From an uncultured Sphingomonadales bacterium (GTDB taxonomy: Bacteria > Pseudomonadota > Alphaproteobacteria > Sphingomonadales > Sphingomonadaceae): 57,143 nt of DNA. The position numbers were made by a program, and so were the translations under genes. Each line of letters starts with the position of its first letter. Position 1 is the stretch's first letter. The stretch spans positions 1 to 57,143 of the forward strand of contig CAIXXP010000037.1 in assembly GCA_903923465.1 (NCBI GenBank). Direction: 5' to 3'. The notes under the pieces were generated by a model. It saw only the letters and a program-made list of their open reading frames with translations. It ran no database searches and was not told the DNA's origin. Positions 6,442 through 35,123 of the stretch are shown piece by piece.

Positions 6442-6447
6442 CCCAAT

Positions 6448-6476
6448 GGCGCGGCTGGGCTGAGCCCGGTCGCGCC
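6448..6476. terminator. Bidirectional hairpin between TonB receptor and modC
   Basis: GGCGCG...GGGC-tga-GCCC...CGCGCC between convergent stops. Confidence 0.55.
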
Positions 6477-7797: not shown

Positions 7798-7816
7798 TCG
7801 CGCAGGCTCCAGACGC

Positions 7817-8653
7817 TCAGTTCACGCCGAACCCGAAGCGGCGGAAGATCGCTTTGCCCGCGCCGGAGCGCAGAAAGGCGGCAAAGCCCACCGCCTCGGG
7901 ATTGGCGGGCGTCTGGCTGAAGGACGGCACCAGCAGGGCGAGCGGATAGCGGATCGGCTCGTGGCTGCTCTCGGGGAACGTGGCCACCACCCGCACCCTG
8001 GGTTCGGCTCGCGCATCGGTGGCATAGACGATGCCCAGCGGCACCTCGCCGCGCGCCACCAGCGCCAGGGCAGAGCGCACGCTGTCGGTCCCGGCGATCT
8101 TGCCGGCCACCTGCGGCCACACCCCCAGATTTGTGAGCGCCTGTTTGGCATAGCGGCCCGCGGGCACCGAATCGACAGCGCCCGTGGCCAGCCTGCCCCC
8201 ATTTGATCCGGCCCCCAGCGCCTGCGCCAGCGGGAAGCCGGGGGCGATGCGCAGGGCAAGGGTGCTGCCCGCAGGCGCCACCAGCACCAGCGCGTTGGTC
8301 AGCAGGTTGACCCGGCTGCCATCGCGCAACAGCCCGCGCGCGGCCACATGATCCATCCATTCCTCATCGGCGGAGATGAAAATATCGGCCGGTGCACCCG
8401 CCTCGATCTGCCGCGCGAGTGCGGAGGATGCCGCCAGCGACAGTACCGGGCGCGGGTGACCCTTGGCCGCCCAGGCATCGGCGGCCTGATTCAGTGATTC
8501 CTGTAAGCTGGCCGCCGCCAGCACCACGGGAGCCACCGGCCCGGTGGGCGCATCCGCCGCAGCGGGCGCCGACGCCAGTGCCAGCGCGCCGAACGCCGCC
8601 AGCAACCGGTTCAGCCATGCCCTCGCGCCATGCGCCTTGATCGCGTGAACCAT
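7817..8653 (-). CDS. modA: Molybdate ABC transporter substrate-binding protein
   Basis: Signal peptide, VVLAAASLQESLNQAADAW, LAASSALARQIEAGAPADIFISADEEWMD. ATG at 8653 preferred over track start. Confidence 0.9.
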   Translation of the reverse strand: MVHAIKAHGARAWLNRLLAAFGALALASAPAAADAPTGPVAPVVLAAASLQESLNQAADAWAAKGHPRPVLSLAASSALARQIEAGAPADIFISADEEWMDHVAARGLLRDGSRVNLLTNALVLVAPAGSTLALRIAPGFPLAQALGAGSNGGRLATGAVDSVPAGRYAKQALTNLGVWPQVAGKIAGTDSVRSALALVARGEVPLGIVYATDARAEPRVRVVATFPESSHEPIRYPLALLVPSFSQTPANPEAVGFAAFLRSGAGKAIFRRFGFGVN

Positions 8654-8691
8654 CCTTGTGCCTCCTGCCGGCGGGCGATCGGGGCCGCCAC

Positions 8692-8727
8692 CGGTATCTC
8701 TATATTTCACAGTATATAGAAATATCG
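8692..8727. promoter_or_regulatory. ModE-like operator palindrome upstream of modA
   Basis: CGGTATCTCTATAT-ttcacagt-ATATAGAAATATCG, 12 of 14 paired arm positions; resembles the CTATAT/ATATAG core of ModE sites; 39 bp from modA ATG. Confidence 0.65.
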
Positions 8728-8838
8728 ACGCTGAGAAGCCCCATTGGTCGCGGCGCGCAAAGCACGCCCTGCCCGGCACGCTTGCGCCCGCGGCAGCACT
8801 GAGGCACGTTGCCGCGCGGGAGACAGGAGAAGGCGCGC

Positions 8839-9708: not shown

Positions 9709-10851
9709 CTACCGCTTCAGCACGGTAATCGCGCAATTGCCGCCCGCGCCAATCACATGGGCGAGGCCCACCTTGGCGCCTTCCACCTGCCGGGCCCCGG
9801 CCCGACCGCGCAACTGGCTGACAAGCTCGAAGATCTGCCCGACATGCGAGGCGCCCACCGGCTCGCCCTTGCTGATCAGCCCGCCGCTGGTGTTCACCGG
9901 AATCCGCCCGCCGATCTGGGTGTCGCCATCGTCGACCAGCCGGCCACCCTCGCCGATGGGGCACAGGCCGATGTGCTCATAGGCTTCCAGCTCGCAGAAG
10001 GCGTCGGTATCCTGCACCTCCATCACGTCCACGTCTTCGGGGCCGATGCCGGCCTGGGCATAGACCTCGGCGGCGGTCAGCTGGGTGACATGCGGGTTCG
10101 TCACTTTCGCGCTCTGGGTATACAACGGCACGCTGAAGTGGGTGTAGAGCGCCACCTTGTGCGAACAGCCCGCCACCTCGATCGGCGCATCGCTATATTT
10201 ATGCGCGACATCACCTGAGCACAGCACGATCGCCGCCGCGCCTTCATTGGGTGCGCAAATCGACAGCAGATTGATCGGATCGTTCACCAGCGGCGAATTC
10301 AGCACCTGCTCCAGGCTGAACTCCTTCTGATACATCGCATAGGGATTGTGCACGGAGTTCTTGTGGTTCTTCACCGAGATCCTGGCGATCTGCTCCACCG
10401 TGGTGCCATGCTCATACATGTGGCGGCGGGCGCGGATGGCCCAGGGAATGGGGTTTTGCGACAGGCCGGTCGCAATCTGCCAATCCTCATAGAGCTGGCG
10501 CGGGTCCATGAAGCCGCGCGGCATTTTCTCCACGCCCAGCACCATGGCGGTGTCCTTCGCGCCGCTGCCGATGGCCATGCAGGCCTGGGCGAGTGCCGCG
10601 CCACCGCTGGCGCAGGCCGCCTCGACGTCGATGATGGAAATGCCGGTGCGGCCCAGCTGGCCCAGCACACGCAGGCCGGTGGTGGCCGGCAGGTACATCC
10701 GCCCGCAATAGGCCTGCTGCACATCGCGCCAGGGCATATTGGCATCGGCCAGTGCCATACTCGCCGCCTCCAGCCCCATCTGCGTATAGGGCTTGTCCTC
10801 GAAGCGGCCGAATTTGTGGATGCCCACGCCGACGATATAAACGGGCCGCAT
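9709..10851 (-). CDS. Thiolase family protein (SCP-x / lipid-transfer type)
   Basis: VEAACASGGAALAQA active-site region, NTSGGLISKGEPVGAS, GLAHVIGAGGNCAITVL. Confidence 0.85.
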   Translation of the reverse strand: MRPVYIVGVGIHKFGRFEDKPYTQMGLEAASMALADANMPWRDVQQAYCGRMYLPATTGLRVLGQLGRTGISIIDVEAACASGGAALAQACMAIGSGAKDTAMVLGVEKMPRGFMDPRQLYEDWQIATGLSQNPIPWAIRARRHMYEHGTTVEQIARISVKNHKNSVHNPYAMYQKEFSLEQVLNSPLVNDPINLLSICAPNEGAAAIVLCSGDVAHKYSDAPIEVAGCSHKVALYTHFSVPLYTQSAKVTNPHVTQLTAAEVYAQAGIGPEDVDVMEVQDTDAFCELEAYEHIGLCPIGEGGRLVDDGDTQIGGRIPVNTSGGLISKGEPVGASHVGQIFELVSQLRGRAGARQVEGAKVGLAHVIGAGGNCAITVLKR

Positions 10852-11315
10852 CAGCGTGCCTCCTCATCAACAGGGCGGAAGCGATAGGACAGCACCGGCT
10901 GCCCTGTCTCGTCGCGGTAGAGTTCGTAGATGTCGAGCTGCATCGGCATGCCCACTTGCGGGGCATCCAGCGGGCAATCCAGCACCGAGAGCACGCGAAT
11001 GCCCTCGGGCAGTTCCACCAGCCCCACCGGGAAGGGCACGAAGGGCCCCTCTCCCGCTTTATCGCCCCCCTTGTAGTCACCAGGCGGCCGATTGCGCACA
11101 ATGGTATAGCTATACAGTTCACCCTCGCGCGACAGGGTGGTGGGCGTCAGTGCGGTCGATTGGCAATTGGGGCAGGCCGGAACCGAACCCAGCGAGACCT
11201 CGCCGCATTCTCCGCAGACCGTGCCCGCCAGCGCGATATCGGCCAGCGGCCCTTCCCGGCTGGAAAAGAAATCGTCCCTGACGGTAGCGAATTGCGCCTG
11301 CGTGATGTTCATCAT
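10851..11315 (-). CDS. Zn-ribbon OB-fold (DUF35) protein
   Basis: CGECG...CPNC zinc ribbon then OB-fold YSYTIVRNRPPG; stop/start overlap with the thiolase. Confidence 0.85.
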   Translation of the reverse strand: MMNITQAQFATVRDDFFSSREGPLADIALAGTVCGECGEVSLGSVPACPNCQSTALTPTTLSREGELYSYTIVRNRPPGDYKGGDKAGEGPFVPFPVGLVELPEGIRVLSVLDCPLDAPQVGMPMQLDIYELYRDETGQPVLSYRFRPVDEEAR

Positions 11316-11552
11316 GGCCCCTCTCCCGCCGCGCCAGTGGCCCAGAGCGGTTGTCATTTCTGCCGCTTGTGGTGCTGGCCACGCGGTGGCTTGTCAAGCA
11401 AGCCGGGGCCCGGCGCCCAAGTGATCACACCCGTGGAGCGTGGCGTCGCTGCCCGCGTCGCGCCTGTCGCCACCGCGGCGTGGGGCTTGCGGGCGGGCGG
11501 GCGTGGTGGCAGGGCCGTCGGGTTTACGCATGTCAGGCAGAGAGGGAAAGCC

Positions 11553-15857: not shown

Positions 15858-17018
15858 TCAGCTGCGCGGCAGGCGCATCATGTTGGCCACGTTGTTTCTC
15901 TGGATGGCGGTGGAGCCGCCGAAGATCGGTAGCACCATGGCATCGCGCACATAGCGCTCCATGTCGAAATCGTCGGAATAGCCATAGGCACCCATCACCT
16001 GCTGGCACTGGATGACGATGTCGCGGATGGTCTCGGACAGGTAGAGCTTGGTCATCGAGGTCTGGAGCGCGCTGGGCTCGCCGCGCTCCAGCATGCCGAT
16101 CGATTCCTTCATCATCACCCGGCAGGTCTGCAGCTTGGTCTGCACATCGGCCAGCGTGTGGCGCACCGCCTGATGGCCGCAGATGCGCATGCCGAACTGC
16201 ACGCGCTCCTGCGAATAGTTCCACGCCGCCTCCACCGCCGCCTCGCCAAGGCCCATGGCCAGCGCGCAGGGGCTCAACTTCTCCACCTCCAGCGTGGGGC
16301 CGGCCAGCTGCGACCAGCCCTGGTTCAATTTCTCCGGCCCGCCGAGGATATTCTCGATCGGCACCTCGACGTCCTCGAACACCACATCATTGGTGGGGAT
16401 GCCGCGCATGCCCATGGTGCCGGTGGAGGTGGTCGACACACCCTTGGTGGTGCGCGGGATGATGACGAAGGACAGGTTCTTGTATCGGTTTTCCACCGGG
16501 CCGCTGCGCACCAGCGTATAGATGGAATCGCAGATTTCCGCGCCGGTGCACCAGCGCTTGGCGCCGTTGATGATAACCTTGTCGCCGCGAATTTCGGCGC
16601 GGGTTTCCACCGAGGCGAGATCGCCGCCGACATTGGGCTCCGACAGGCCGAGGGCGAACATCATCGTGCCAGCCGCCACGCCCGGCAGATATTTGCGCTT
16701 CTGCGCCTCGGACCCCTGCTCGCCGATGTTGAGGCCGCAATAGTTGGTGCAATGCACCAGCAGGCCGGCCAGAATCGTGCTGCGCTTGCCGATCTCCTGC
16801 ATCACCATCAGCAGCGCGTTGATGTCGCGCCCGAGGCCGCCGTATTCCTCGTCCACCGCCAGGGCGGTGATGCCCAGCTCGCCGAAACGGGCCAGCAGCT
16901 CGGGCGGAAGATAGTCGGCCCTGTCCCACCCACGCACCACTTCTGGCGGGGCGATTTCGTCGAGCAGGGCGCGCAGGCTCTCGCGCAGCATCGCCAGCTC
17001 TTCGGAGTTCATCGCCAT
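15858..17018 (-). CDS. Acyl-CoA dehydrogenase
   Basis: GLSEPNVGGDLASVETRAEIRGDKVIINGAKRWCTGAE; GAYGYSDDFDMERYVRD. Start at 17018 with ggagacc upstream; the 865-aa track ORF is an extension. Confidence 0.9.
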   Translation of the reverse strand: MAMNSEELAMLRESLRALLDEIAPPEVVRGWDRADYLPPELLARFGELGITALAVDEEYGGLGRDINALLMVMQEIGKRSTILAGLLVHCTNYCGLNIGEQGSEAQKRKYLPGVAAGTMMFALGLSEPNVGGDLASVETRAEIRGDKVIINGAKRWCTGAEICDSIYTLVRSGPVENRYKNLSFVIIPRTTKGVSTTSTGTMGMRGIPTNDVVFEDVEVPIENILGGPEKLNQGWSQLAGPTLEVEKLSPCALAMGLGEAAVEAAWNYSQERVQFGMRICGHQAVRHTLADVQTKLQTCRVMMKESIGMLERGEPSALQTSMTKLYLSETIRDIVIQCQQVMGAYGYSDDFDMERYVRDAMVLPIFGGSTAIQRNNVANMMRLPRS

Positions 17019-17050
17019 AAACCGGTCTCCCACATATATGCTGAGATTGC

Positions 17051-17068
17051 CCCTAACGCATGTTAGGG
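17051..17068. promoter_or_regulatory. Operator-like palindrome CCCTAAC-GCAT-GTTAGGG
   Basis: Perfect 7-bp arms between divergent ACAD and thiolase-like genes; same half-sites as 31615-31628. Confidence 0.7.
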
Positions 17069-17150
17069 TTGCGTCAACACGGTGCCTCACATAGCACATA
17101 TCTGAAGCCTGCCCTGCGGGCGTCAAGCAACTTGAGCTTTGGAGAGTGAG

Positions 17151-18314
17151 ATGAACACCGGGGGATTTCCGCGCGGGCGCACCGCTATTGTCGGCGCGGC
17201 CACATTCGGAATTGGCGAGGCCCCGGGCCTCACCCCGCTGGATATGGGGGCCAGCGCGCTGGGTCTGGCGCTGGCCGATGCCGGCCTCGGCCTCGGTGAC
17301 GTCGACGGGCTGTTCGTGTGCACCAGCGACGATGCGCTCTCCGGCCTCAGCCTGGCCGAATACCTCGGCATCCGGCCAAAGTTCTCCGACAACAACCGCA
17401 CCGGCGGCTCGGCCTTCATGAGCCACGCCATCGTCGCGGCGCTGGCGCTGGAGGCGGGCTATTGCGATGTGGCGGTGGTGGTGCACGCCAGCAACCAGCG
17501 CACCGCCGGCGCCGGGCTGGTCTCCATGCGCAAGCCGAGCCTGTACGAAGTGCCCTACAAGCCGATGAACCCGCTGTCGCCCTATGCGCTGGCGGCACAG
17601 CGCCACATGTATGAGTTCGGCACCACCCGCGAGCAGCTGGCCGAAGTGGCCGTGGCGGCGCGCGGCTGGGCCATCCAGAACCCCGAGGCGTGGTGCTACG
17701 ACAAGGGCCCGCTGACCCTCGATGCCGTGGCCGCCGCGCGCATGGTCTCCTCGCCGCTCACCGTGCTCGATTGCTGCCTGGTGGTCGATGGCGCCTCTGC
17801 CATCGTGATGACCCGCGCCGACCGCGCCAAGGACCTGCGCGCCAAGCCGGTGTACCTGCTGGGCGGCGCGGCCGAAGTGTGGCACTCGGAAATCGCCTCC
17901 ATGCCCGACCTCACCGTCACCGCCGCCAAGGCCTCGGGCGAACGGGCCTTTGCCATGGCCGGCTATGGCCCGCAGGACATGAACACCGTCCAGCTCTATG
18001 ACGCCTTCACCATCAACACCATCCTGTTCCTCGAAGACCTGGGCTTCTGCCCGAAGGGCGAGGGTGGGCGCTTCGTTTCCGGCGGCCACATCGGGCCCGG
18101 CGGCGGCCTGGCCGTGAACACCAACGGCGGCGGCCTGTCCTATTGCCACCCCGGCATGTACGGCCTGCTGGCCATCGTGGAAGCCGTGCGCCAATTGCGC
18201 GGCGAATGCGATGTGCGGCAGGTGAAGGACGCCGGGTTGGCTGTGGCCCACGGCAACGGCGGCACGCTGTCCAGCCAGGCCACGCTGGTGCTGGGGACAG
18301 CCGAGACGGTTTGA
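17151..18314 (+). CDS. Thiolase-like / lipid-transfer (Ltp) family protein
   Basis: AIVGAATFGIGEAPG; NTNGGGLSYCHPGMYGLLAIVEAVRQLRGE; GLAVAHGNGG. Confidence 0.85.
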   Translation: MNTGGFPRGRTAIVGAATFGIGEAPGLTPLDMGASALGLALADAGLGLGDVDGLFVCTSDDALSGLSLAEYLGIRPKFSDNNRTGGSAFMSHAIVAALALEAGYCDVAVVVHASNQRTAGAGLVSMRKPSLYEVPYKPMNPLSPYALAAQRHMYEFGTTREQLAEVAVAARGWAIQNPEAWCYDKGPLTLDAVAAARMVSSPLTVLDCCLVVDGASAIVMTRADRAKDLRAKPVYLLGGAAEVWHSEIASMPDLTVTAAKASGERAFAMAGYGPQDMNTVQLYDAFTINTILFLEDLGFCPKGEGGRFVSGGHIGPGGGLAVNTNGGGLSYCHPGMYGLLAIVEAVRQLRGECDVRQVKDAGLAVAHGNGGTLSSQATLVLGTAETV

Positions 18315-18344
18315 GGTGTGATCGCCGAGATTTGAAGGAAACCG

Positions 18345-18552
18345 GGAGTGGAGTTTTCGCAGGGGACTCATCCCCTGCACCCCATGACGTCTTCCGGCGA
18401 GAGATCGCGCCGAAGGCCACGTCGGGCACAGCCTTACCGCGCCGCAGGCGCCCAAAACCGCCTCGCGGCCGGCGCAACGCCGCAGGTTATGCGCCGAGCA
18501 AGACAGGAACGGGGTTTGGCGCCTAAGGCCCCAAGACTTCCCTCTTTCCAGT
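18345..18552 (-). repeat. Dispersed intergenic repeat, copy A
   Basis: Reverse complement GAAGTCTTGGGGCCTTAGGCGCCAAACCCCGTTCCTGTCTT ... CTGCGGCGCGGTAAGG ... CTCGCCGGAAGACG ... GCAGGGGATGAGTCCCCTGC aligns to 36394-36590. Confidence 0.8.
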
Positions 18553-18619
18553 TTCTAAAATAAACGATGCCCGCATCCCGCGTGAATGGGCGAAGACCGA
18601 GCAATCGAGAGGAGTGCCT

Positions 18620-20170
18620 GTGGACGATACCTATGCCCATGTCATCCGGCGCAACGCGCGGTGGTATCGCGATTCGGAAGCCTTCATCTGCGGCGACCGC
18701 CGGATAACCCACGGGCAGTTTCACGATGAGGCGGCGCGGCTGGCCGGGGCGCTGGTGGCCTCGGGCATTCACCCGCAGGAGCGCGTATCGATCCTGTCGA
18801 TGAACTCGGTGGAATATGCACTGATCTTTGGCGCCTGCGAGCTGGCCGGCTTCATCGCCGCCACGGTGAATTTCCGGCTGGCGGGGCCCGAAATCCTCAC
18901 CGTGCTCAGCGAGGCCCAGCCTGAGATCCTGTTCTTCGAGGCGCAATATGCCGAGACCGTCGCCCAGATCCGGGGCAGCCTGCCCGGCATTGCCACCTAT
19001 GTGGTCATTGATGGCACCCCGCCCGCATGGGCCCTGTCGTGGGACGCTTTTCTGGCGCGCGGCGATGACAGCGCTATCCCGCTCTCCCCACCCAAGGCTG
19101 ATGATCTGGTCTATCTGATCTATACCAGCGGCACCACCGGCAAGCCCAAGGGCGTGATGCACGACCACGCCTATGCCTGCGCGCTGGCCCGCCATTGCGG
19201 CGAGTACATGTGCCTGGGCCAGCACGACCGGCTGCTGCTGATGATGCCGCTGTTCCACATCGGCGCCAAGGCCATCGCCATGGGCGCGCAGTGGTATGGC
19301 GGCACCGTGCACCTGCACCGCGCCTTCGATCCGGTGGCGATTCTCGCCACCATCCAGCAAGAGCGCATCACCGCCACGCACATGGCGCCCACCCTGCTGG
19401 CCGGCGTGCTGGATACGCCGACCATCGATGATTACGACATCTCCAGCCTGCGTTCGCTGATCTATTCGGCCTCATCCATGCCGCCGGCGCTGCTGGCCCG
19501 GGCGCTGGAACGCTGGGGCCCGATCTTCGTGCAGATGTATGGCCAGACCGAGGGCATCCTCACCGTGCTGCCGATGAATGCCCATCGCCTCGACGGCAAC
19601 CCGCAAACGCTGGAGCGGCTGTCCTCCGTGGGGCACGCCTTCATCGGCACGGAAGTCTCCGTGCGCGATGAAAACAACAACGAGGTGCCGGTGGGCGAGG
19701 TGGGCGAGTTGTGCACCCGTGGCGACATGATCATGCGCGGCTATTGGAACAACCAGCCCGGCACCATCGCGGCGCTGGCGGGCGGCTGGCTGCACTCCGG
19801 CGACGTTGGGCGCATGGACGAGGCCGGCTATTTCTGGCTGGTCGACCGCAAGAAGGACATGATCATCTCGGGCGGCGAGAACATCTACAGCCGCGAGGTG
19901 GAGGAAGCCCTGCTGTCGCATCCGGCGGTGGCCCAGGCGGCGGTGGTCGCCAGGCCCGATGAAAAATGGGGCGAGGCGGTGTGCGCCATTGTCGCCCTGC
20001 GCCCCAATCATGCCGCCACGGAAGAGGCGCTGATCGCCCATTGCCGCGAGCAGATCGCCGCCTACAAGCGCCCCCGCTCGGTCATCTTCATCGACGAGAT
20101 GCCGGTTCTCGCCAGCGGCAAGATCAACAAGGTGGCCCTGCGCGAACAATATATCCGCGGCGGCGACTGA
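18620..20170 (+). CDS. AMP-binding acyl-CoA synthetase (FadD-like)
   Basis: YTSGTTGKPKGVMHDH, YGQTEGI, GDVGRMDEAGYFWLVDRKKDMIISGGENIYSREVEE; GTG start 18620 (or 18614). Confidence 0.92.
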   Translation: MDDTYAHVIRRNARWYRDSEAFICGDRRITHGQFHDEAARLAGALVASGIHPQERVSILSMNSVEYALIFGACELAGFIAATVNFRLAGPEILTVLSEAQPEILFFEAQYAETVAQIRGSLPGIATYVVIDGTPPAWALSWDAFLARGDDSAIPLSPPKADDLVYLIYTSGTTGKPKGVMHDHAYACALARHCGEYMCLGQHDRLLLMMPLFHIGAKAIAMGAQWYGGTVHLHRAFDPVAILATIQQERITATHMAPTLLAGVLDTPTIDDYDISSLRSLIYSASSMPPALLARALERWGPIFVQMYGQTEGILTVLPMNAHRLDGNPQTLERLSSVGHAFIGTEVSVRDENNNEVPVGEVGELCTRGDMIMRGYWNNQPGTIAALAGGWLHSGDVGRMDEAGYFWLVDRKKDMIISGGENIYSREVEEALLSHPAVAQAAVVARPDEKWGEAVCAIVALRPNHAATEEALIAHCREQIAAYKRPRSVIFIDEMPVLASGKINKVALREQYIRGGD

Positions 20171-21104: not shown

Positions 21105-22595
21105 TTACCGCCCGAGGGGGTAGAACACCGTCTTCTCGTTGGTGAACTCCTTGAGCCATTCCGGCCCATATTCCCGGCCGATGCCCGAACGCTTGTAGCC
21201 GCCGATCGGGCCAAAGGCCATTTTCGCCATGCCGCCATTCAGCGCGACCGAGCCGGTGCGGATCTTCATCGCCATCTGATAGCCGGTGGCCGCATCCGCC
21301 GTGAGGATGCCGCCCGAGAGGCCGTAACGCGAGTCATTGGCGATCGCGATGGCCTCCTCATCGGTATCGAAACCGATGACCACACCGACAGGGCCGAAGA
21401 TCTCGTCCTGAGCGATCTGGCTCTTGTTATCGACGTTGTCGAACACGGTGATGTCGAAGAAAAAGCCCTTGTCGTGGCCCGCAGGCCGGCCGCCGCCGCA
21501 CACCAGCGTGGCACCCGAATCCAGACCCAGTTGAACGTAGTGCGCCACCTTGTCGAACTGCGCCTTGCGGATCAGCGGCCCCAGCAGCACCGAAGGATCG
21601 GCCGGATTGCCGACTTTCCAACCGGCAGCGACCGCCTGCACCGTGGCGACAAACGCCGGACGGGTCGAATTGTGCACCAGAAACCGCGTGCTGAGCGCGC
21701 AGCCCTGGCCGCAATTGGTGCTGAGCATGCCGACAGCGGCAATAGCCGCGCCCTGAATATCGGCATCGGCCCGCACGATCATCGCCGACTTGCCGCCCAG
21801 TTCGAGGTGGACGCGCTTCAGCGTCGGCGCGGCCTGCGCCATGATCGCGGCGCCCACCACTTCCGAACCGGTGAAGCTGACCATGTCCACGCGCGGGTCG
21901 GTGGTGACGGCGGCACCCACGTCGGCGCCGCCGGTCACGACATTCAGCACGCCTTCGGGCAACCCGCATTCCAGCGCCACCTCGCCGAACAGCAGCGCGG
22001 AAAACGGGGTGAACGGCGAGGGTTTGAGCACCAGCGTGTTACCCGCCAGCAGCGCCGGCACCACCTTTGACAGGTTCAACAGGAAGGGGAAGTTGTAGGC
22101 GGTGATACCAGAGACCACGCCCACCGGCTCGCGCACCACGATGGCACCCCCCAACCAGTTGGTAGCGCCGCCATCCATGGGGTTGGGCACGATCTCGTTG
22201 GGCAGGTGATAGCTGTCGTCCTTCAGGCTCACCTCAATGGCGCTGGCAAAATGCGCCATGCAGGCGCCGATCTGTACGGCATCGACAATATGCTGCGAGC
22301 AGCCAACTTCGGCGATCAGCAACTCGCGCAGTTGCGGAATGCGGCGGGTTAGCCCAGCGTGCATGGCGGTCATCACCGCGGCGCGCTCGGCCCGGCTCAT
22401 CCGGGGCCATGGCCCCGTGTCAAACGCCTGGCGGGCGGCGGCAATCGCGGCTTCGGCATCAGCCAGGGTGCCAACCGGCGCGCTGCCGATCACCTCCTCG
22501 GTGGCGGGGTTGATGACATCGTCGCTGCCGCCAGAGCCAGGCACCCAGCGGTTGGCGATGAACAGGCCCTTGGGCTGCGTAAATGGTATCGTCAC
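21105..22595 (-). CDS. Aldehyde dehydrogenase family protein
   Basis: VTGGADVGAAVTTDPRVDMVSFTGSEVVGAAI, LELGGKSAMIV, NCGQGCAL; GTG start at 22595 behind ggggag. Confidence 0.9.
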   Translation of the reverse strand: MTIPFTQPKGLFIANRWVPGSGGSDDVINPATEEVIGSAPVGTLADAEAAIAAARQAFDTGPWPRMSRAERAAVMTAMHAGLTRRIPQLRELLIAEVGCSQHIVDAVQIGACMAHFASAIEVSLKDDSYHLPNEIVPNPMDGGATNWLGGAIVVREPVGVVSGITAYNFPFLLNLSKVVPALLAGNTLVLKPSPFTPFSALLFGEVALECGLPEGVLNVVTGGADVGAAVTTDPRVDMVSFTGSEVVGAAIMAQAAPTLKRVHLELGGKSAMIVRADADIQGAAIAAVGMLSTNCGQGCALSTRFLVHNSTRPAFVATVQAVAAGWKVGNPADPSVLLGPLIRKAQFDKVAHYVQLGLDSGATLVCGGGRPAGHDKGFFFDITVFDNVDNKSQIAQDEIFGPVGVVIGFDTDEEAIAIANDSRYGLSGGILTADAATGYQMAMKIRTGSVALNGGMAKMAFGPIGGYKRSGIGREYGPEWLKEFTNEKTVFYPLGR

Positions 22596-22709
22596 AAGCT
22601 TCTCTCCCCTGGATTTCGCCGGTGCCGGCGCGACCTGCCGCATGCGGAATCACCGGCCCTGCGCCCGGCGATAGCCGCCGCGGCGGCAAAAATCGACGCC
22701 CGCGGGAAA

Positions 22710-22822: not shown

Positions 22823-23647
22823 ATGAGCGTATGGAGCTTTGCAGGTAAGCGTGTGGTGATCGCAGGCTGCGCCACCGGCATGGGCGAGGCCACCGCCCGC
22901 GAGTTGGTGCGCCTGGGCGCCGAATTGCATGGCTTCGACATCCGCCCCTCGGCGGTGGAGATGGCCTCGTTCCACCCCATCGACCTGTCGAGCCCCGACT
23001 CCATCGCCACCGCCGTGGCCTCGCTGGGTGGCGAGATCGACGCGCTGTTCAACTGCGCCGGCCTGCCGCAAACCTTCCCGGCCGAAGCGGTGATGAAGGT
23101 CAACTTCATCGGACTGCGCCATTGGACCGAGCAATGGCTGCCGCGCATCCGCAAGGGCGGCTCGGTCTCTTCGATCACCTCCACGGCCGGCTTCGCCTGG
23201 AGCCAGCACCTGCCCGAGATCATGGAACTGCTCGCCACGCCCGACTTCGCCTCCGCCGAAGCCTGGGTCGCGGCCCATCCCGATCTGGTCGGCGATGGTT
23301 ATGGCTTCTCGAAAGAGGTCGCCACCGTGTGGACGATGATGATGGGTGCCCGCACCATCAAGCAGGGCGTGCGGATCAACTGCATCTGCCCCGGCCCGAC
23401 GCAGACGCCGATGATGAACGACTTCGAGGAAGTGGCCGGCGCCACGATGATCGACGTCTTCACCCTGCCGATCGAACGCCGCTCCACCCCGGCGGAGCAG
23501 GCCTATCCGCTGATCTTCCTGGGCAGCGACGCGGCCAGCTACATCAACGGCCACGCGCTCAATGTCGATGGCGGCTTTGTCGGCGCCGTTGCCACCGGGC
23601 AGATCGATGTCGCCGCCGAAGTCGGCAAGGTTTTGGCCAGCAATTAA
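22823..23647 (+). CDS. SDR family oxidoreductase (3-alpha-hydroxysteroid dehydrogenase-like)
   Basis: GKRVVIAGCATGMGEATARELVRLGAELHGFD; late YGFSKE catalytic motif; NVDGGF. Confidence 0.85.
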   Translation: MSVWSFAGKRVVIAGCATGMGEATARELVRLGAELHGFDIRPSAVEMASFHPIDLSSPDSIATAVASLGGEIDALFNCAGLPQTFPAEAVMKVNFIGLRHWTEQWLPRIRKGGSVSSITSTAGFAWSQHLPEIMELLATPDFASAEAWVAAHPDLVGDGYGFSKEVATVWTMMMGARTIKQGVRINCICPGPTQTPMMNDFEEVAGATMIDVFTLPIERRSTPAEQAYPLIFLGSDAASYINGHALNVDGGFVGAVATGQIDVAAEVGKVLASN

Positions 23648-23671: not shown

Positions 23672-24862
23672 ATGGAACTGACCCCCGTCCCCGCGCACAT
23701 CCCCCCGGAAATGGTGATGGACTACAATCTGTTCGACGACCCGCTGTTTGCCAAGGACCTGCACAGCGGCATGGCGGAACTGGCGGCATCGGGCCGGGAT
23801 CTGATCTGGTCGCCGCATTTTGGCGGCCACTGGGTAGTGATCGGGCGCGAGGCGGCATTCGAGGCCTCGACCAATTTCGAGCAGTTCACCAGCGACCCCC
23901 ACGCGCTGTTTCCCGAGCTTGCGCAAACCAGGCAGATCCCGATCAACATGGATCCGCCCGAACATGCCCCTTTCCGCAAGGTGCTCACCGATGCCTTCTC
24001 GCCTCGGGCGGTGATGGGGATGCAGGGCAATGTCGAGGCGCTGGCGCGCGAGCTGATCGATGCGATCAAGCACCAGCCCGGCTGCGATTTTGCCTCGGCC
24101 ATCGCCGAGCCGCTGCCGGTGAAGATCTTCATGAAGGTCGCCGGCTTCCCCGTCGAACGCTTCGCCGAATTCCGCCAGTGGGTGCTCACCAGCATCTCCG
24201 AGGGCGACCCGGCCAAGCGTCAGGCCATCATGGAGAAATTCAACGAGGTCACCCGCGAACTTCTGGCCGCCCGCCGCAAGCAGCGGCAGGACGACCTCAT
24301 CAGCACGCTGATCGACGCCGACTTTGGCGGCCGCCAGGCCACGGATGCGGAGCTGGAGGGCATGTGCCTGCTGCTGTTCATCGCCGGGCTGGATACGGTG
24401 ACCAACGGCATGGCGCTGGTGATGCGCCATCTGGCGATGGATACCGAACTTCAGGCGCACCTGCGCGCCCATCCCGAGCATCTCAACAGCGCGATCGAGG
24501 AAATGCTGCGCTGCTATGCGGCCAACACCTTCCCCCGCTGGGTGGCGCATGACAGCGCATTTTTTGGCGCGCCGCTGCGCCGGGGCGACATGGTGCTGGT
24601 CAGCCTGCCCACGGCCAATCTCGACCCTCGCGGCTTTGCCAACCCCACGGCGGTGGATATGGACCGCAAGACGCCGCATCTGGTGTTTGGCGCGGGGGTC
24701 CACCGCTGCGTCGGCGCGCAACTGGCGCGTATCGAGATCCGCACGCTGCTCTCGATGTGGCTGCGCGAGATGCCGCCCTTCCGGCTCGATCCGGACAAGC
24801 CATGGAAGTACCATACCGGCTTCGTCTTTTCGGTCGATTCGCTACCGATCCGCTGGGACTAG
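23672..24862 (+). CDS. Cytochrome P450, CYP101 (P450cam)-like
   Basis: LLFIAGLDTVTNG I-helix, EEMLRCY (ExxR), FGAGVHRCVGAQLAR heme loop; co-linear with recalled P450cam (VPAHIPPEMVMDYNLF, MDPPEHAPFR, GFVFSVDSLPIRWD). Confidence 0.88.
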   Translation: MELTPVPAHIPPEMVMDYNLFDDPLFAKDLHSGMAELAASGRDLIWSPHFGGHWVVIGREAAFEASTNFEQFTSDPHALFPELAQTRQIPINMDPPEHAPFRKVLTDAFSPRAVMGMQGNVEALARELIDAIKHQPGCDFASAIAEPLPVKIFMKVAGFPVERFAEFRQWVLTSISEGDPAKRQAIMEKFNEVTRELLAARRKQRQDDLISTLIDADFGGRQATDAELEGMCLLLFIAGLDTVTNGMALVMRHLAMDTELQAHLRAHPEHLNSAIEEMLRCYAANTFPRWVAHDSAFFGAPLRRGDMVLVSLPTANLDPRGFANPTAVDMDRKTPHLVFGAGVHRCVGAQLARIEIRTLLSMWLREMPPFRLDPDKPWKYHTGFVFSVDSLPIRWD

Positions 24863-25306: not shown

Positions 25307-25503
25307 ATGGGTTCCTTGAAATCGGCCCTGGGGCAAAGGCGTTCACCGCAAGCTAGCGCCATTCATCCGCGCCTCCAAGCATCCGCTGGCCCCCGCCCTC
25401 ACCCAGCATCAGCGTGATTCCTTCGCCATCCCGCGCGCGCGCCGATTGACAGGCCCGTGGATTTCGGGTGGGTTCGGCCCAGCAAAAAAGGGATGGAGCT
25501 AGG

Positions 25504-26286
25504 ATGACTGGGATACTGAACGGCAAGGTGGCATTGGTCTCGGGCGGCGCGGCCGGCATTGGCGAGGGCGCAACCCGGGTGCTGGCATCGCAAGGCGCGG
25601 CCGTGGCCATTTGCGATCGCGACACGGCGCGCGGCGAGGCGCTGGCGGCGGAGCTGAACGCCAAGGGCCAGCGGGCCGCCTTCTTCCAGGCCGACTATCT
25701 CGACCCCACCACCGGCCCCGTGGCGGTGAAGGCGGTGGTCGAGCATTTCGGCGGGCTGGATATCGTCGTCAACAACGTCGGCGGGGTCAGCCCGCGCCTG
25801 CTGGTTGACCAGAACACCGGCAATTGGGAGCGGGTGATCAACCTCAATCTGATGAGCATGATCGCCACCACCCAGGAAGCGGCGCGGCACCTGCGTGACG
25901 GCGGCGCCATCGTCAATGTCGCCAGCACGGAGGCCCTGCGCGCCGCCCCCGGCTTCAGCATCTACAGCGCCTGCAAGGCGGCCATGGCGCAGTTCACCAA
26001 GACCATGGCGCTCGAACTTTCCGGCCGCGCCATCCGCGTCAACTGCATCGCGCCTGACCATGTCGCCACTCCGGGCCTCGCCGGCCTGATGGACGCCCCG
26101 CCGGAACTGCGCGACCGCCATGTGCCGCTGGCACGCATGGCCTCCATCGAGGAAGTGGGGCAGGTTATCGGCTTCCTCGCCGGGCCGCTCTCCTCGTGGA
26201 TCACCGGCACCACCATCCCCGTGGATGGGGGCATCACGGCGGCGGCCGGATGGCGGCGCAACGCCGCCGGCGCATGGGAACTGTGA
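25504..26286 (+). CDS. Short-chain dehydrogenase/reductase
   Basis: VALVSGGAAGIGEGATRVLASQGA; NNVGG; YSACKAA; PVDGGITAAAG. Confidence 0.9.
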   Translation: MTGILNGKVALVSGGAAGIGEGATRVLASQGAAVAICDRDTARGEALAAELNAKGQRAAFFQADYLDPTTGPVAVKAVVEHFGGLDIVVNNVGGVSPRLLVDQNTGNWERVINLNLMSMIATTQEAARHLRDGGAIVNVASTEALRAAPGFSIYSACKAAMAQFTKTMALELSGRAIRVNCIAPDHVATPGLAGLMDAPPELRDRHVPLARMASIEEVGQVIGFLAGPLSSWITGTTIPVDGGITAAAGWRRNAAGAWEL

Positions 26287-26938: not shown

Positions 26939-27067
26939 AGGCCTGCCGCGCCATCCCCCCATGGCGGAAACAGCGGCAAGTCCGGTTCGGGCCCCATCAC
27001 CCAGCGCACCGCCCGCGCCTTGCCCAGCCTATGGGCAAACGCGCGGGCGGTGGCGCGCCAACAGAGT

Positions 27068-28198
27068 ATGCCCGGCATGTCGCGAGTGATGGAGTCCTTA
27101 TTCCAGCCCCTGCAGGTGGGGCGGCTCACCATCCCCAACCGCATCGCCATGTCGCCAATGACGCGCGAGTTTTCGCCCGGCGGCGTGCCCGGTGCCGATG
27201 TCGCCGAATATTACCGCAAGCGCGCTGCGGGCGGCGTCGGCCTCATCGTCACCGAGGGCGCCGCCATCGACCATCCGCTGGCCGTGGATGGCACCGCCAT
27301 TCCCCACCTCTATGGCGAGGCGGCCCTTGCCGGCTGGCGCGGGGTGGTGGCGGCGGTGCATGCGGCCGGCGGCACCATCGTGCCGCAACTGTGGCATCAG
27401 GGCGTTCTGCGCGACGCCTCCCGTTCGGCCCTGCCGCAGGAGGTGGGCAACCGGCCCTCCGGCCTGTGGGGCAAGCCCGGCGTCACCACCTACACCGCCG
27501 ATTACGTGGCGAAAATGGCCCCCCCGACAAGGCCGATGACCGACAGCGAGATTGCCGACATCATCGCCGCCTATGGCCGCAGCGCGCGCTTTTCCCTGGC
27601 GGCCGGGTTCGACGGCATCGCCATCCACGGCGCCCACGGCTACCTCATCGACACCTTCTTCTGGCCCGATACCAACCGCCGGACCGACCGCTGGGGTGGC
27701 GACGCCCGCGCCCGGGCCGAATCCGGCGTGGAGGTGGTGCGCGAAATCCGCCGGGCCGTGGGCGACGGCGTGCCTATCATCTTCCGCTTTTCGCAGCACA
27801 AGCAGCAGGACTACAAGGCGCGCTTCGCCGCGACGCCACAGGAGCTCGGCATCACCCTGGGCGCGCTGGCCGATGCCGGGGTGGACATGTTCGACGCCAG
27901 CGCCCGCAAGTTCGACTTCCCCACCTTTCCCGAGGCCGCCGCGCCCGACAATACCCGTCCGCTGGCGGCCTGGGCCCGCCACCTCACCGGCAAGCCTTCG
28001 ATGGCGGTGGGCGGAATCGGCCTTGACAATGACCCCCGCGAAGGGCTGGAGCAACTGGCCCGCGCCTTCGAGCAGGGCATGTTTGATATGATCGCGGTGG
28101 GGCGTACCTTGCTGGCCGATCCGGCCTGGGCCAACCGGGCGCGTGCGGGCGAGGCATGGCAACCCTTTGAGCCATCTTGCGCGGAGCGGCTGTTGTGA
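27068..28198 (+). CDS. NADH:flavin oxidoreductase / Old Yellow Enzyme family
   Basis: LFQPLQVGRLTIPNRIAMSPMTREF; IHGAHGYLIDTFFWPDTNRRTDRWGG; start uncertain (27020/27068/27077/27089). Confidence 0.88.
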   Translation: MPGMSRVMESLFQPLQVGRLTIPNRIAMSPMTREFSPGGVPGADVAEYYRKRAAGGVGLIVTEGAAIDHPLAVDGTAIPHLYGEAALAGWRGVVAAVHAAGGTIVPQLWHQGVLRDASRSALPQEVGNRPSGLWGKPGVTTYTADYVAKMAPPTRPMTDSEIADIIAAYGRSARFSLAAGFDGIAIHGAHGYLIDTFFWPDTNRRTDRWGGDARARAESGVEVVREIRRAVGDGVPIIFRFSQHKQQDYKARFAATPQELGITLGALADAGVDMFDASARKFDFPTFPEAAAPDNTRPLAAWARHLTGKPSMAVGGIGLDNDPREGLEQLARAFEQGMFDMIAVGRTLLADPAWANRARAGEAWQPFEPSCAERLL

Positions 28199-28287
28199 GC
28201 AACGCTGATTTGCGACCTCGCCGGTAACCGGCGGCGCCCGGCCAGCCAGACGCCGGGCAGACATTCGAATTTTTCGCGGAGTAGACC

Positions 28288-29493
28288 ATGCAGTTCTCAT
28301 TAGACGCCAAGCACGAGGCCTTCCGTCAGGAGGTGCGCTCCTTCATTGCCGAACACATCACCCCGGAGATTCAGCAGCGCGCGCGCCAGGGCGGGTTTTT
28401 CTGCAACAAGGAAGATCAGCGCCACTGGGTGAAGCTGCTGGCCGCCAAGGGCTGGGCCATGCCGAGCTGGCCGCTGGAGCACGGCGGTTGCGACTGGACG
28501 CCGCTGCAGCACTATATCTTCGAGGAAGAGCACCTGCGCGCCGACGCGCCGGGCCTGCCCTTCGCGCTGTATCACATGATCGGCCCGGTGATCATGAAAT
28601 ACGCCTCGCAGGAGTTGCAGGACCAGTTGCTCAAGCCGATGTACAACGGCGACATCACCTTCGCCCAAGGCTTCTCCGAGCCGGGCTCGGGTTCAGACCT
28701 TGCCGCCCTCTCCACCCAGGCGGTGCGCGACGGCGATCACTATGTGGTTAACGGCCAGAAGATCTGGACCAGCGGCGCCTATGAGTCCGAATGGCTGTTC
28801 TGTCTGGTGAAAACCGACACGAAGGTGAAGCCGCAGAACGGCATTTCCTTCCTGGTGTTCCCACTGGACCTGCCCGGCATCACCATCCGCCGCATCCCGC
28901 AGATCGATGGCGACGCGCATCTGTGCGAGACCTTCTTCTCCGATGTGCGCGTGCCGGTGGAAAATCTGGTGGGCGAGGAAGGCAAGGGCTGGACCTACGC
29001 CAAGTCGCTGCTCGATGGCGAGCGCACTGGCAGCGCCTATATCCACTGGAGCAAGCACGAACTGGCCAAGGCCCGCGAGATCGCCGAAAACGAGACGGTG
29101 AATGGCGTGCGGATTATCGACATCCCCGCCTATCAGGCGCGCTTTGCCCGGGCAGAGGCGCAGATCACCGCGCTGGAATGGTCGGTGCTCCGGGTGCTGG
29201 CCAACGAGAACTTCAAATACCCCCTCACCACCATCGCCTCGTCGCTGAAGCTGCGCGGTTCGGAATTGCAGCAGACCGTCTCGATGCTGCAGTGGGATTG
29301 CCTGGGCGCGAAGGGCCTGCGCTTCATCCCGCGTGAGGACTATGGCGCGCAGACCGTGGCCGGCGATCCCTTGTGGCCCGCCCACATGCTGGGCACCACG
29401 CCCAATGCGCTGATCATGCGCGCGGCCACCATCTATGGCGGCGCCCGCCAGATCCAGAAGAACATCGTCGCCAAGATGGCCTTCGGTCTCTAG
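28288..29493 (+). CDS. Acyl-CoA dehydrogenase, first gene of an adjacent pair
   Basis: GFSEPGSGSDLAALSTQAVRDGDHYVVNGQKIWTSGA; IYGGARQIQKNIVAK. Confidence 0.92.
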   Translation: MQFSLDAKHEAFRQEVRSFIAEHITPEIQQRARQGGFFCNKEDQRHWVKLLAAKGWAMPSWPLEHGGCDWTPLQHYIFEEEHLRADAPGLPFALYHMIGPVIMKYASQELQDQLLKPMYNGDITFAQGFSEPGSGSDLAALSTQAVRDGDHYVVNGQKIWTSGAYESEWLFCLVKTDTKVKPQNGISFLVFPLDLPGITIRRIPQIDGDAHLCETFFSDVRVPVENLVGEEGKGWTYAKSLLDGERTGSAYIHWSKHELAKAREIAENETVNGVRIIDIPAYQARFARAEAQITALEWSVLRVLANENFKYPLTTIASSLKLRGSELQQTVSMLQWDCLGAKGLRFIPREDYGAQTVAGDPLWPAHMLGTTPNALIMRAATIYGGARQIQKNIVAKMAFGL

Positions 29494-29540
29494 CCCAATC
29501 TCTAGGGAGGGGCCGCGCGCTCCGGGCTTTCTGTTTTAAC

Positions 29541-29583
29541 GCGTTTTCACCAGCGTCGGCCGATCGGACCAGACCAAAAACGC
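29541..29583. repeat. Inverted-repeat element GCGTTTT...AAAAACGC
   Basis: ttaacGCGTTTTcaccagcgtcggccgatcggaccagaccAAAAACGCtttagg between paired ACAD genes; similar to 56444-56483. Confidence 0.5.
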
Positions 29584-29600
29584 TTTAGGGGTTTCCTGCC

Positions 29601-30719
29601 GTGGATTTCAATTTTTCCGAAGAACAGCAAATGGTGGCCGACGGGGTGGAGCGCTTCGTGCGTGAATCCTACTCGCTGGATCAGCGCCGCAAGCTCGCCG
29701 CCACCCCGCGTGGCTTCAGCGAGGAGCACTGGGCGATGTTTGCCGAAATGGGCTGGCTGGCCCTGGTCATCCCCGAGGATGCCGGCGGGCTGAATTTCTC
29801 CTGCCTCGAAGTGGCGGTGGTTATGGCCGCGCTGGGCCGCGGCCCCGTGCTGGAGCCCTATGTGCCCACGGCCATTCTCGGCGTCCATCTGATCGACAAG
29901 GCGGCCCCGGCGGCGCTGCGCGAGGAAATCCTCGGCGCGGTGGGTGCCGGCGCGCTGAAGCTGGCCTTTGCCCATGACGAGACGAATGGCGTCACCACCG
30001 GCCCGCTGGCGGTGAATGCCAAGGCCGAGAAGGTCAACGGGGGCTATGCCCTCACCGGCCGCAAGACCATGGTGCTGGGCGGCGACAGCGCCGACAAGTT
30101 CATCGTCTCGGCCAAACTCGGCGCGGATACGTCACTGTTCCTGGTGGACCGCGACACGCCGGGCCTCGCCATCACGCCCTACAAGCTGATCGACCACAGC
30201 GGCGCTGCCGATGTCGCCCTCGACGGGCTGGTGGTGGCCGAGGATGCCCTGCTGGGCGCCGCGCCGGACAGGGGCCTCGACACTGGCGCCGTCATCGCCG
30301 AGGCGCTCGACCGGGCCACCTTCGCCCTGCTGGCCGAGGCCGTGGGCGTGATGGAAGCCGCGCTGGATGTGTGCAGCGACTATCTGAAAACCCGCAAGCA
30401 GTTCGGCCAGCCGCTGGGCAATTTCCAGGCATTGCAGCACATTCTGGCCGACATGTTCGTGGAGGCGCAGGAAGCGCGCTCGATGCTGTATTTCCTGCTC
30501 TCGCGCATGGATGGCCCGGCGGCCGAGCGGTCGCGGGCGATCTCGCTGGCCAAGATCGCCATTGGCGAGGGCGGCTTCGTGGTCGCGGCCTCGTCTATCC
30601 AGCTGCACGGCGGCTATGGCGTGACGGACGAATATGTCGTCAGCCACTATTACCGCCGCCTGCTGATCATCAAGAAGCTGTTCGGCGACGTCGAAGACCA
30701 CCTGATGCGCGTGGCCTGA
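29601..30719 (+). CDS. Acyl-CoA dehydrogenase, second gene of the pair
   Basis: MDFNFSEEQQMVADGVERFV; DYLKTRKQFGQPLGNFQALQHILADM; QLHGGYGVTDEY. Confidence 0.92.
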   Translation: MDFNFSEEQQMVADGVERFVRESYSLDQRRKLAATPRGFSEEHWAMFAEMGWLALVIPEDAGGLNFSCLEVAVVMAALGRGPVLEPYVPTAILGVHLIDKAAPAALREEILGAVGAGALKLAFAHDETNGVTTGPLAVNAKAEKVNGGYALTGRKTMVLGGDSADKFIVSAKLGADTSLFLVDRDTPGLAITPYKLIDHSGAADVALDGLVVAEDALLGAAPDRGLDTGAVIAEALDRATFALLAEAVGVMEAALDVCSDYLKTRKQFGQPLGNFQALQHILADMFVEAQEARSMLYFLLSRMDGPAAERSRAISLAKIAIGEGGFVVAASSIQLHGGYGVTDEYVVSHYYRRLLIIKKLFGDVEDHLMRVA

Positions 30720-32875: not shown

Positions 32876-33943
32876 GTGACGCAGGACAACGAGACGGCAG
32901 AGCTTCTGTCGATGGTGGAAAGCTCCGTCGCGCAGTTTCTCGAAACCGCGCGCGCGCGCCCCAATGCCGGGGCCGGCGATGCGGAAGTCTGGCGCGAAAT
33001 CGTCGAACTGGGCCTGCCGCTGGTGGCCCTGCCCGAGGCGATGGGTGGCAGCGGCCTCGGCGCGGCGGGCTTCACCTGCGTTGCCCGGCAGTTTGGCAAG
33101 GCCGCGGTGCCCCAGCCCTATGTGGCCTGCGGCGTGGCGCCGGTGGCGGCGATCGGCGCGCTTGGCGCCAGTGACATCGGGGGCGCTTTCGCCGATGCCG
33201 CTCTGGCGCTCGTCTCCGATGGCGCGAACCGCGTAGCCTTTGGCACCCACCCTGCCGATACCCCGGCCACGCTGGCCGATGGCACATTGACCGGCCAGTG
33301 GCGTCTGGTGCCGCACCCCGCCTCGCACCTGCTGGTTGCGGTGGGCGATGCGCTGGCACTGGTGTCGCTGGATGGCGCCGGTGTGCACCGCCATGTGCAA
33401 AAGGCTCTGGACGGCAGCGAGGCGGCGGTGGTCGATCTGACCGGCGCCCCGGTGCTACATCACGTCTCCGGCCCCGCCGCCGCCCGCGCCGGCGAAGTGG
33501 CGCTGGCCGCCGCCCGGCTCGCCCATGCCGCGCTGCTCGATGGCCTTGCCGCCAGCGCCTTTGGCCAGACACAGGACTACATCAAGACCCGCAGCCAGTT
33601 TAACCAGAGGATCGCCTCGTTCCAGTCGATCCAGCACCGCTCGGTCGACCAGTTCATGGCCGTCTCGCTCACCGATGCCGCGATTGACGCCGCCGCCACC
33701 GCCTTCGCCGCCGACCCCACTTCGTCTCAGGCCAGCGCGCTGATCGCCGCCGCCGTCGCCCGCGCGGCCACCAGCGGCGCCCATGTCGCGCGCGAATCGG
33801 TGCAGATGCATGGCGGCATCGGCTTCACCGCCGAACTGGACGTCGGCCGCTATGTGCGGGCCCTTACCGGCGCCGCAAACCTCTATGGCACCGCGCGCGA
33901 CAACCGCCGGCTGTTTGCCCAACTCGAAAGCGCGGTGGCCTGA
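32876..33943 (+). CDS. Acyl-CoA dehydrogenase, first gene of second pair
   Basis: ACAD C-terminal domain DYIKTRSQFNQRIASFQSIQHRSVDQ, QMHGGIGFTAELDVGRY; GTG start. Confidence 0.88.
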   Translation: MTQDNETAELLSMVESSVAQFLETARARPNAGAGDAEVWREIVELGLPLVALPEAMGGSGLGAAGFTCVARQFGKAAVPQPYVACGVAPVAAIGALGASDIGGAFADAALALVSDGANRVAFGTHPADTPATLADGTLTGQWRLVPHPASHLLVAVGDALALVSLDGAGVHRHVQKALDGSEAAVVDLTGAPVLHHVSGPAAARAGEVALAAARLAHAALLDGLAASAFGQTQDYIKTRSQFNQRIASFQSIQHRSVDQFMAVSLTDAAIDAAATAFAADPTSSQASALIAAAVARAATSGAHVARESVQMHGGIGFTAELDVGRYVRALTGAANLYGTARDNRRLFAQLESAVA

Positions 33944-33944
33944 A

Positions 33945-35123
33945 ATGAGCAGCAACACAGATTTCAACGCGCTGAGCGACGCCGACTTCCGCAAGTTTCT
34001 GGAAGACTGGCTGGCCGCCAATTATCCGCCCGAGTGGCGGCAGGACCTGCGCCGCCCGTTCCGCCGCCTGCGTGGCGACGATGTCGTGCGCTGGATCCGG
34101 ATGCAGCTGGAGGCGGGCCTGCGCTGCCCGGCCTGGCCAAAGCAATATGGCGGCATGGGCCTGGATTTCGCCAAGCAGCTGGTCCATCAGGAGGTGTTCG
34201 AGCACTACGGCGTGGCCCGCGTACTCGATCTGGCGGAGACGCAGATCGGGCCGACGCTGATGGCCCATGGCAGCGATGCGCAAAAGGCCGCGTTCATTCC
34301 GCCCATGCTGCGCGGCGACCACACCTGGTGCCAGGGCTATTCCGAACCGGGCGCCGGCTCCGACCTCGCCTCGCTGAAGACCGCCGCCGTGGTCGATGGC
34401 GATGTGCTGCGCGTCACCGGCCAGAAAATCTGGACCAGCCACGCGCAGGAAGCCACCCACATCTTCGCGCTGGTGCGCACCGCCAAGCTGGAGAAAAAGC
34501 AGCAGGGCATCAGCTTCATCCTGGCCGAGATGAACACGCCCGGCATCACCATCCGCCCCATCGCCAATCTGGCCGGCGAGGAGGAGTTCTGCGAGGTCTT
34601 CTTCGACGACGCCAAGGTGCCGCTCGCCAATGTGGTCGGCGGGCTCGACAATGGCTGGACGGTGGCCAAGGCGCTGCTCGGCCACGAGCGGGTGTGGATC
34701 GGCAGCCCCGGCCTTGCCACCCGTGCCCTGTGGGTGGCGCGCCAGTTGATGCAACACCATGCCGGCGATCAGGGCCTGGCCGATGCCTATGCCACCGTCG
34801 CGGCGGACCTTCAGGACCTGCGCAGCCTCTACCGCAAAACCTGCCGCGACATCGCCGGCGGCCGCCAGCCCGGCCCAGAGGTCTCGATGCTGAAGGTGCT
34901 GCAGTCCGAGCTGTTGCAGCGCATCACCGAGCTGAATGTGGAATTGGGCGGCCCCGACGCGCTGATCGATGGCGACAGTGTTGTCGGCAACGGCCCGGCT
35001 GCTATGCTCGCCGACTATGGCTGGCAATTTTTCATGGCGCGACCCGGCACCATTTTTGCCGGCGCCAACGAGATCCAGCGCAATGTGCTGGCCAAATCGG
35101 TTCTGGGATTGGGAAGCAAATAA
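33945..35123 (+). CDS. Acyl-CoA dehydrogenase, second gene of second pair
   Basis: GYSEPGAGSDLASLKTAAVVDGDVLRVTGQKIWTSHAQ; IFAGANEIQRNVLAK; ATG 33945 just after previous stop. Confidence 0.92.
   Translation: MSSNTDFNALSDADFRKFLEDWLAANYPPEWRQDLRRPFRRLRGDDVVRWIRMQLEAGLRCPAWPKQYGGMGLDFAKQLVHQEVFEHYGVARVLDLAETQIGPTLMAHGSDAQKAAFIPPMLRGDHTWCQGYSEPGAGSDLASLKTAAVVDGDVLRVTGQKIWTSHAQEATHIFALVRTAKLEKKQQGISFILAEMNTPGITIRPIANLAGEEEFCEVFFDDAKVPLANVVGGLDNGWTVAKALLGHERVWIGSPGLATRALWVARQLMQHHAGDQGLADAYATVAADLQDLRSLYRKTCRDIAGGRQPGPEVSMLKVLQSELLQRITELNVELGGPDALIDGDSVVGNGPAAMLADYGWQFFMARPGTIFAGANEIQRNVLAKSVLGLGSK

Follow-up and report, generated by a model that had tools for sequence, protein, structure and literature searches.

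The gene at 23672-24862 raises the question of whether its product, a cytochrome P450 resembling P450cam, belongs to the CYP101 family as first annotated, and from which partners and for which pathway it would draw electrons. It lies in a 57,143-nucleotide stretch of DNA from an uncultured Sphingomonadales bacterium, the whole of which is here termed the window. The features of the gene on which the argument turns are:

23672..24862, + strand: cytochrome P450, 396 aa, CYP101 sister clade (ORF, Pfam, PDB sequence matches, tree and AU test, AF2/Foldseek)
23927..23962, + strand: B'-C region T86-R87-Q88-I-P-I-N-M-D-P-P-E97, with Thr86 at P450cam Tyr96 and Gln88 at Phe98 (MAFFT and phmmer alignments)
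24386..24400, + strand: I-helix GLDTV, residues 239-243 (within AGLDTV), with the acid-alcohol pair Asp241-Thr242 (sequence)
24500..24511, + strand: ExxR motif (EEMLR), Glu277-Arg280 (sequence)
24686..24715, + strand: heme-binding loop FGAGVHRCVG with axial Cys346 (sequence)

The P450 and its relation to CYP101

The reading frame is intact, starts with ATG and has a coding-like GC content by codon position (0.67/0.43/0.85). All the superfamily marks of cytochrome P450 are present, namely the heme-Cys loop FxxGxxxCxG, ExxR and Pfam p450 (84.4 bits in the scan of predicted genes), and the product is an intact, soluble P450 of class I type. Asp241, Thr242, Glu277, Arg280 and Cys346 are invariant across 37 aligned related sequences. 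So is Arg102 at the position of P450cam Arg112, whose retention would be in keeping with continued docking of an acidic ferredoxin at that site. The co-linearity with P450cam proposed in the initial annotation, which included GLDTV and the C-terminal strand, is borne out: residues 3-396 align with about 11-407 of P450cam (about 211 bits, phmmer), AGLDTV is in place and the C-terminal strand, FSVDSLPIRW, is P450cam-like. The AF2 model (input, 37 related sequences; mean pLDDT 92.5) has P450cam and CYP101D/J structures as its best Foldseek matches, with TM up to 0.94, a P450cam-type fold which has no power to separate CYP101 from other relatives. The reaction chemistry is probably the same as that of P450cam. 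The protein appears to be a fairly ordinary catabolic oxygenase.

In the B'-C region, Y96-D97-F98-I-P of P450cam pairs with T86-R87-Q88-I-P both in the MAFFT alignment and in a gapless count anchored on MDPPE. The reported exchange of Tyr96 and Phe98 for Thr and Gln therefore stands, and no alignment restores a tyrosine at the position-96 equivalent. Further pocket changes from P450cam are F87 to A, T101 to I, V247 to I, G248 to A, V295 to N and D297 to F (MAFFT). The tyrosine that hydrogen-bonds camphor in CYP101A1, D1 and D2 is Thr86 here, which argues against P450cam-style anchoring of camphor by Tyr. Among the sequences aligned, however, Tyr at this position is confined to CYP101A1, D1, D2, J2 and two near kin. 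The residue is Pro in most of the nearest relatives, Met in CYP101C1 and His (residue 85) in the likely CYP101B1 (MAFFT); ‘altered’ is therefore a misleading description of the pocket, as the absence of Tyr96 is the norm outside the camphor enzymes and not a peculiarity of this gene. CYP101B1 and CYP101C1, which lack the tyrosine, prefer ionone (PMC9655578). Of the earlier description, a CYP101-like enzyme with an altered substrate pocket, what holds is the P450cam-like fold and the residue replacements; what does not is membership of CYP101 and the suggestion of an unusual pocket.

Identity to CYP101A1, C1, D1, D2, J2 and the likely B1 is 29-33% (MAFFT), below the about 40% that is the customary line for a P450 family. 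CYP101B1 was represented by SARO_RS18540 (WP_011906780) of N. aromaticivorans pNL2, which we take to be that enzyme from its 43.8% identity to CYP101A1, its His at residue 85 and background on the published enzyme. (L034, tried as a stand-in, was discarded for its lack of a close PDB match.) In an IQ-TREE tree (LG+C20, 61 rows) the CYP101 references group with their close kin in a clade of their own, with support 99/87, and the window P450 is placed outside it in a separate 32-row clade with support 100/96. Constraining it into CYP101 costs 57.8 log units and is rejected (AU p = 0.00078). Because of the low identity, the separate clade and this rejection, the sequence comparisons place the protein outside CYP101 despite its P450cam fold. 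A position outside the CYP101 clade had been named beforehand in the initial annotation as one of two outcomes that would overturn its CYP101 assignment, and with the protein outside the CYP101A1/B1/C1/D1/D2/J2 clade that assignment is contradicted. It is very unlikely that the protein is nevertheless a genuine member of CYP101 whose pocket has been re-tuned to act on ionones or norisoprenoids, as those of CYP101B1 and CYP101C1 do. Such membership would fit its best solved sequence relatives, which are CYP101J2 (top-scoring, 239.9 bits in the PDB sequence search) and P450cam, the Foldseek result and the lack of Tyr96 in CYP101B1 and C1 (alignment; PMC9655578), but it is at odds with 29-33% identity, with a CYP101 core clade that forms without the protein and with the rejection of its forced inclusion there (AU p = 0.0008).

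The clade to which the P450 belongs appears widespread, mainly alpha- and gammaproteobacterial, and rich in P450s from catabolic clusters; no characterised member was found. The closest sequence found, L063 from a Caulobacteraceae MAG, is 46% identical, and in 196 same-genus genomes the best matches outside the genome of the window are 41-45% identical. [L063 paired with the window P450 in quick trees, but the careful IQ-TREE tree leaves this fork open and no exact sister is claimed.] The genome of the window (G000) has at least 6 other P450 genes, on contigs C5, C10, C15, C130, C187 and C217, and those on C5, C10 and C15, which have Trp where P450cam has Tyr96, fall together in a single clade. 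Tandem pairs of related P450s are present in Sphingomonadaceae MAGs at L065:378-2999 and L111:8001-10167; every one of these proteins shares about 40-42% identity with the P450 of the window.

The adjacent dehydrogenase and the catabolic cluster

The genes nearest the P450 include the following:

18614..20170, + strand: acyl-CoA ligase (AMP-binding), neighbouring catabolic gene (Pfam, NCBIfam)
21105..22643, − strand: aldehyde dehydrogenase, neighbouring catabolic gene (Pfam Aldedh, 471 bits)
22823..23647, + strand: short-chain dehydrogenase (SDR), coniferyl-alcohol dehydrogenase subfamily, 274 aa (NCBIfam NF009092, above cut-off)
25468..26286, + strand: second SDR, downstream of the P450 (Pfam)
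27020..28198, + strand: Old-yellow-enzyme-type flavoprotein (Oxidored_FMN; Pfam)
28288..30719, + strand: acyl-CoA dehydrogenase pair, pimC-like and pimD-like (Pfam; NCBIfam, both below curated cut-offs)

The first SDR gene ends 24 bp upstream of the P450 start on the same strand, and the two are probably co-transcribed as an operon. Its product is the one clearly conserved neighbour of the P450: among the 80 nearest P450 loci from named genomes, the same SDR type adjoins the P450 in 33, in alpha- and gammaproteobacteria. Around the two genes, from about 9.7 to 36.4 kb of the window, extends a CoA-type catabolic cluster (Pfam/NCBIfam) with CoA-transferases, thiolases, acyl-CoA ligase, several SDRs, aldehyde dehydrogenase, the Old-yellow-enzyme-type flavoprotein, paired acyl-CoA dehydrogenases, ECH, MaoC, OB-fold proteins and regulators of the IclR and TetR types.

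Adjacent acyl-CoA dehydrogenases occur as two pairs, at 28288-30719 and 32876-35123. A further one is within an 865-aa ORF at 15858-18455 (−), which matches acyl-CoA dehydrogenase only from about residue 480 (Pfam); since the rest of it is overlapped by a plus-strand ORF (17139-18314) that has a thiolase C-terminal domain, the real dehydrogenase gene is probably shorter, at about 15858-17015. About 13 kb from the P450, at 9709-11357 (−), abut genes for a lipid-transfer-type thiolase and an OB_ChsH2 protein, a pair of the type that follows the P450 in relatives. The stretch 7-8779 begins and ends with ABC transporter genes, one of which comes with an SBP_bac_11 binding protein, and it also encodes a TPR-sulfotransferase and a TonB-dependent receptor.

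At E <= 1e-20 the SDR has a single relative in the PDB, a 3alpha-hydroxysteroid dehydrogenase. This, together with the paired acyl-CoA dehydrogenases, the OB_ChsH2-type proteins and the lipid-transfer-type thiolase of the window, would suit a cluster and P450 dedicated to steroids or bile-acid-like compounds, in which the SDR would be a hydroxysteroid dehydrogenase; in the estrogen edc operon, too, P450, chsH2-like and lipid-transfer genes follow one another (PMC7793797). Such specificity is nonetheless unlikely. An extradiol ring-cleavage dioxygenase was not found among the scanned window genes (on which ground identification of the window as an edc cluster was dropped), the enzyme types of the window occur in terpenoid and cyclic-acid degradation too, and the NCBIfam scores of the dehydrogenases are below cut-offs.

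Electron supply and the ferredoxin-linked relatives

No ferredoxin or ferredoxin reductase was detected in the window by a six-frame motif scan or by Pfam scans of predicted genes, and whole-genome searches with PF00111 and PF14759 gave no match on its contig, in agreement with the initial annotation. (One 2Fe-2S-like motif, which overlaps the P450 but is read in an antisense or shifted frame, was set aside as a chance match, since by codon composition the ORF that contains it is not the coding frame.) The search of the rest of the genome that had been suggested there did yield candidates on other contigs. This inventory is from protein-family searches of a genome that is 89% complete in 299 contigs, so that absences from it are not proof. 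One Reductase_C FAD ferredoxin reductase was found, stand-alone on contig C145. There are eight Fer2 matches, and the only adrenodoxin-type ferredoxin found among them, on contig C213, matches adrenodoxins, 3lxf (an N. aromaticivorans-type ferredoxin entry) and putidaredoxin. Two others follow immediately after Rieske-oxygenase-like genes, and the remainder mostly resemble molybdenum-hydroxylase small subunits in size and motifs.

The genome thus contains the inventory of a class I three-component system, an FAD ferredoxin reductase and a P450-type [2Fe-2S] ferredoxin. Supply in trans by the C145/C213 pair would be the simplest route, with the C213 protein the presumed ferredoxin, though it could serve Fe-S assembly instead. 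That the partner genes are missing from the locus is usual, since in Novosphingobium (Caenibius) tardaugens the cluster of the edcA P450 is also reported to be without ferredoxin and reductase genes, several expressed ones being elsewhere (PMC7793797), and candidates are present elsewhere in the genome under study.

Many relatives are arranged differently. A small CxGNARC...CP ferredoxin is encoded within 1.7 kb of the P450 in 37 of the 80 nearest named-genome loci, all 33 loci with the adjoining SDR also carry it, and the gene order FDX-SDR-P450-OB-thiolase is found in many. In mycobacteria and in further bacteria, CXXNXXC(X)nCP ferredoxins accompany P450s and work with them, and the ones that were examined contain a [3Fe-4S] cluster (PMC6237146); by analogy the ferredoxin of the relatives is presumably of [3Fe-4S] type. 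The conserved alpha- and gammaproteobacterial module (L048:10581-17798; also L050, L060, L066, L083, L127 and others), of which no published account was found in a literature search, consists of this ferredoxin, SDR, P450, OB-fold protein and thiolase, often with ECH and an acyl-CoA dehydrogenase that is a fusion about 735 aa long. The halves of the fused enzyme align with the first window pair, the N-half with 29601-30689 and the C-half with 28246-29490.

The window has the adjacent coniferyl-alcohol-dehydrogenase-type SDR (22823-23647), which is 53-57% identical to most SDRs of the ferredoxin-linked module, but no adjacent CxxNxxC...CP ferredoxin, and its counterparts of the other module proteins are remote, at only 20-33%. 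It is improbable that the P450 is served in the cell, like these relatives, by a [3Fe-4S] ferredoxin of its own whose gene lies in the unassembled remainder of the genome or has diverged beyond recognition. The proximity of such genes in 37 of the 80 loci, the ability of such ferredoxins to work with P450s (PMC6237146) and a genome only 89% complete speak for it. Against it, a motif scan and searches with the Sphingobium protein, Fer4_13 and Fer4_15 found none in the window or the genome, and in the IQ-TREE tree the ferredoxin linkage is limited to one part, outside which the window P450 branches. A tentative proposal, somewhat less than evenly probable, is that the P450 represents an unnamed CYP family beside CYP101. 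In one large lineage of this family a dedicated [3Fe-4S] ferredoxin with the asparagine motif would have been acquired or kept, and the window lineage would use [2Fe-2S] partners that it shares with other systems. If so, the clade is a natural experiment in iron-sulphur partner change of a P450cam-type enzyme.

The best reading of the locus, held with moderate confidence, is of a class I hydroxylase with trans-encoded redox partners, followed by the SDR and CoA-dependent oxidation, and with a hydrophobic, probably isoprenoid substrate. The P450 would hydroxylate an unactivated C-H bond of such a compound (a cyclic terpenoid, norisoprenoid or steroid-like molecule), the neighbouring SDR would oxidise the new alcohol to a carbonyl, and aldehyde dehydrogenase, CoA ligase or CoA-transferases, acyl-CoA dehydrogenases, hydratases and thiolases would carry the product through CoA-dependent oxidation; we infer both this order of steps and the substrate class. 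Electrons would pass from NAD(P)H via the C145 FAD ferredoxin reductase and the C213 [2Fe-2S] ferredoxin to the P450. Consistent with this are the P450 hallmarks, the P450cam fold, the SDR linkage, the CoA-type cluster, the invariant Arg102 and the presence of a single reductase and a single adrenodoxin-type ferredoxin. What counts against it is the remoteness of the window counterparts of the relatives' other module proteins and the use by the nearest relatives, as gene order suggests, of a different ferredoxin type.

Comparison with known systems

The EdcA estrone 4-hydroxylase cluster of N. (Caenibius) tardaugens is likewise a CoA-type catabolic cluster with a P450 and without its own ferredoxin and reductase genes (PMC7793797), a likeness judged from gene content, though no ring-cleavage dioxygenase was found in the window. 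With the camphor 5-hydroxylases CYP101A1 (P450cam) and CYP101D1/D2, the window P450 shares the fold (TM 0.94), full-length co-linearity, the Asp-Thr pair, the Cys loop and the Arg112 equivalent. However, it is 29-32% identical to them, lacks equivalents of Tyr96, Phe98, Phe87, Thr101 and Asp297, lies outside their clade and is without putidaredoxin and reductase genes alongside. CYP101J2, the 1,8-cineole hydroxylase of Sphingobium yanoikuyae, is its best-scoring solved sequence (239.9 bits), but at 32% identity retains Tyr at position 96 and is a member of the CYP101 clade. The ionone hydroxylases CYP101B1 and CYP101C1 of Novosphingobium aromaticivorans are also sphingomonad enzymes without Tyr96 (PMC9655578), but are 32-33% identical and inside that clade.

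Closer are the [3Fe-4S]-ferredoxin-linked P450s, for example that of Sphingobium sp. RAC03 (WP_037476717, BSY17_RS03580), which is 40% identical, is in the same larger clade and adjoins the same SDR type. Unlike the window P450, it has next to it a dedicated CVGNARC...CP ferredoxin, the fused 735-aa acyl-CoA dehydrogenase, an OB-fold protein and a thiolase, and the B'-C region of the RAC03 P450 is about 14 residues longer. These comparisons correct a tempting CYP101 or camphor-type annotation. Of what they brought up besides, the sister lineage linked to a [3Fe-4S] ferredoxin is of most interest. The clade could be a source of new hydroxylases for terpenoids or steroids, and its members could be compared to study P450-ferredoxin specificity.
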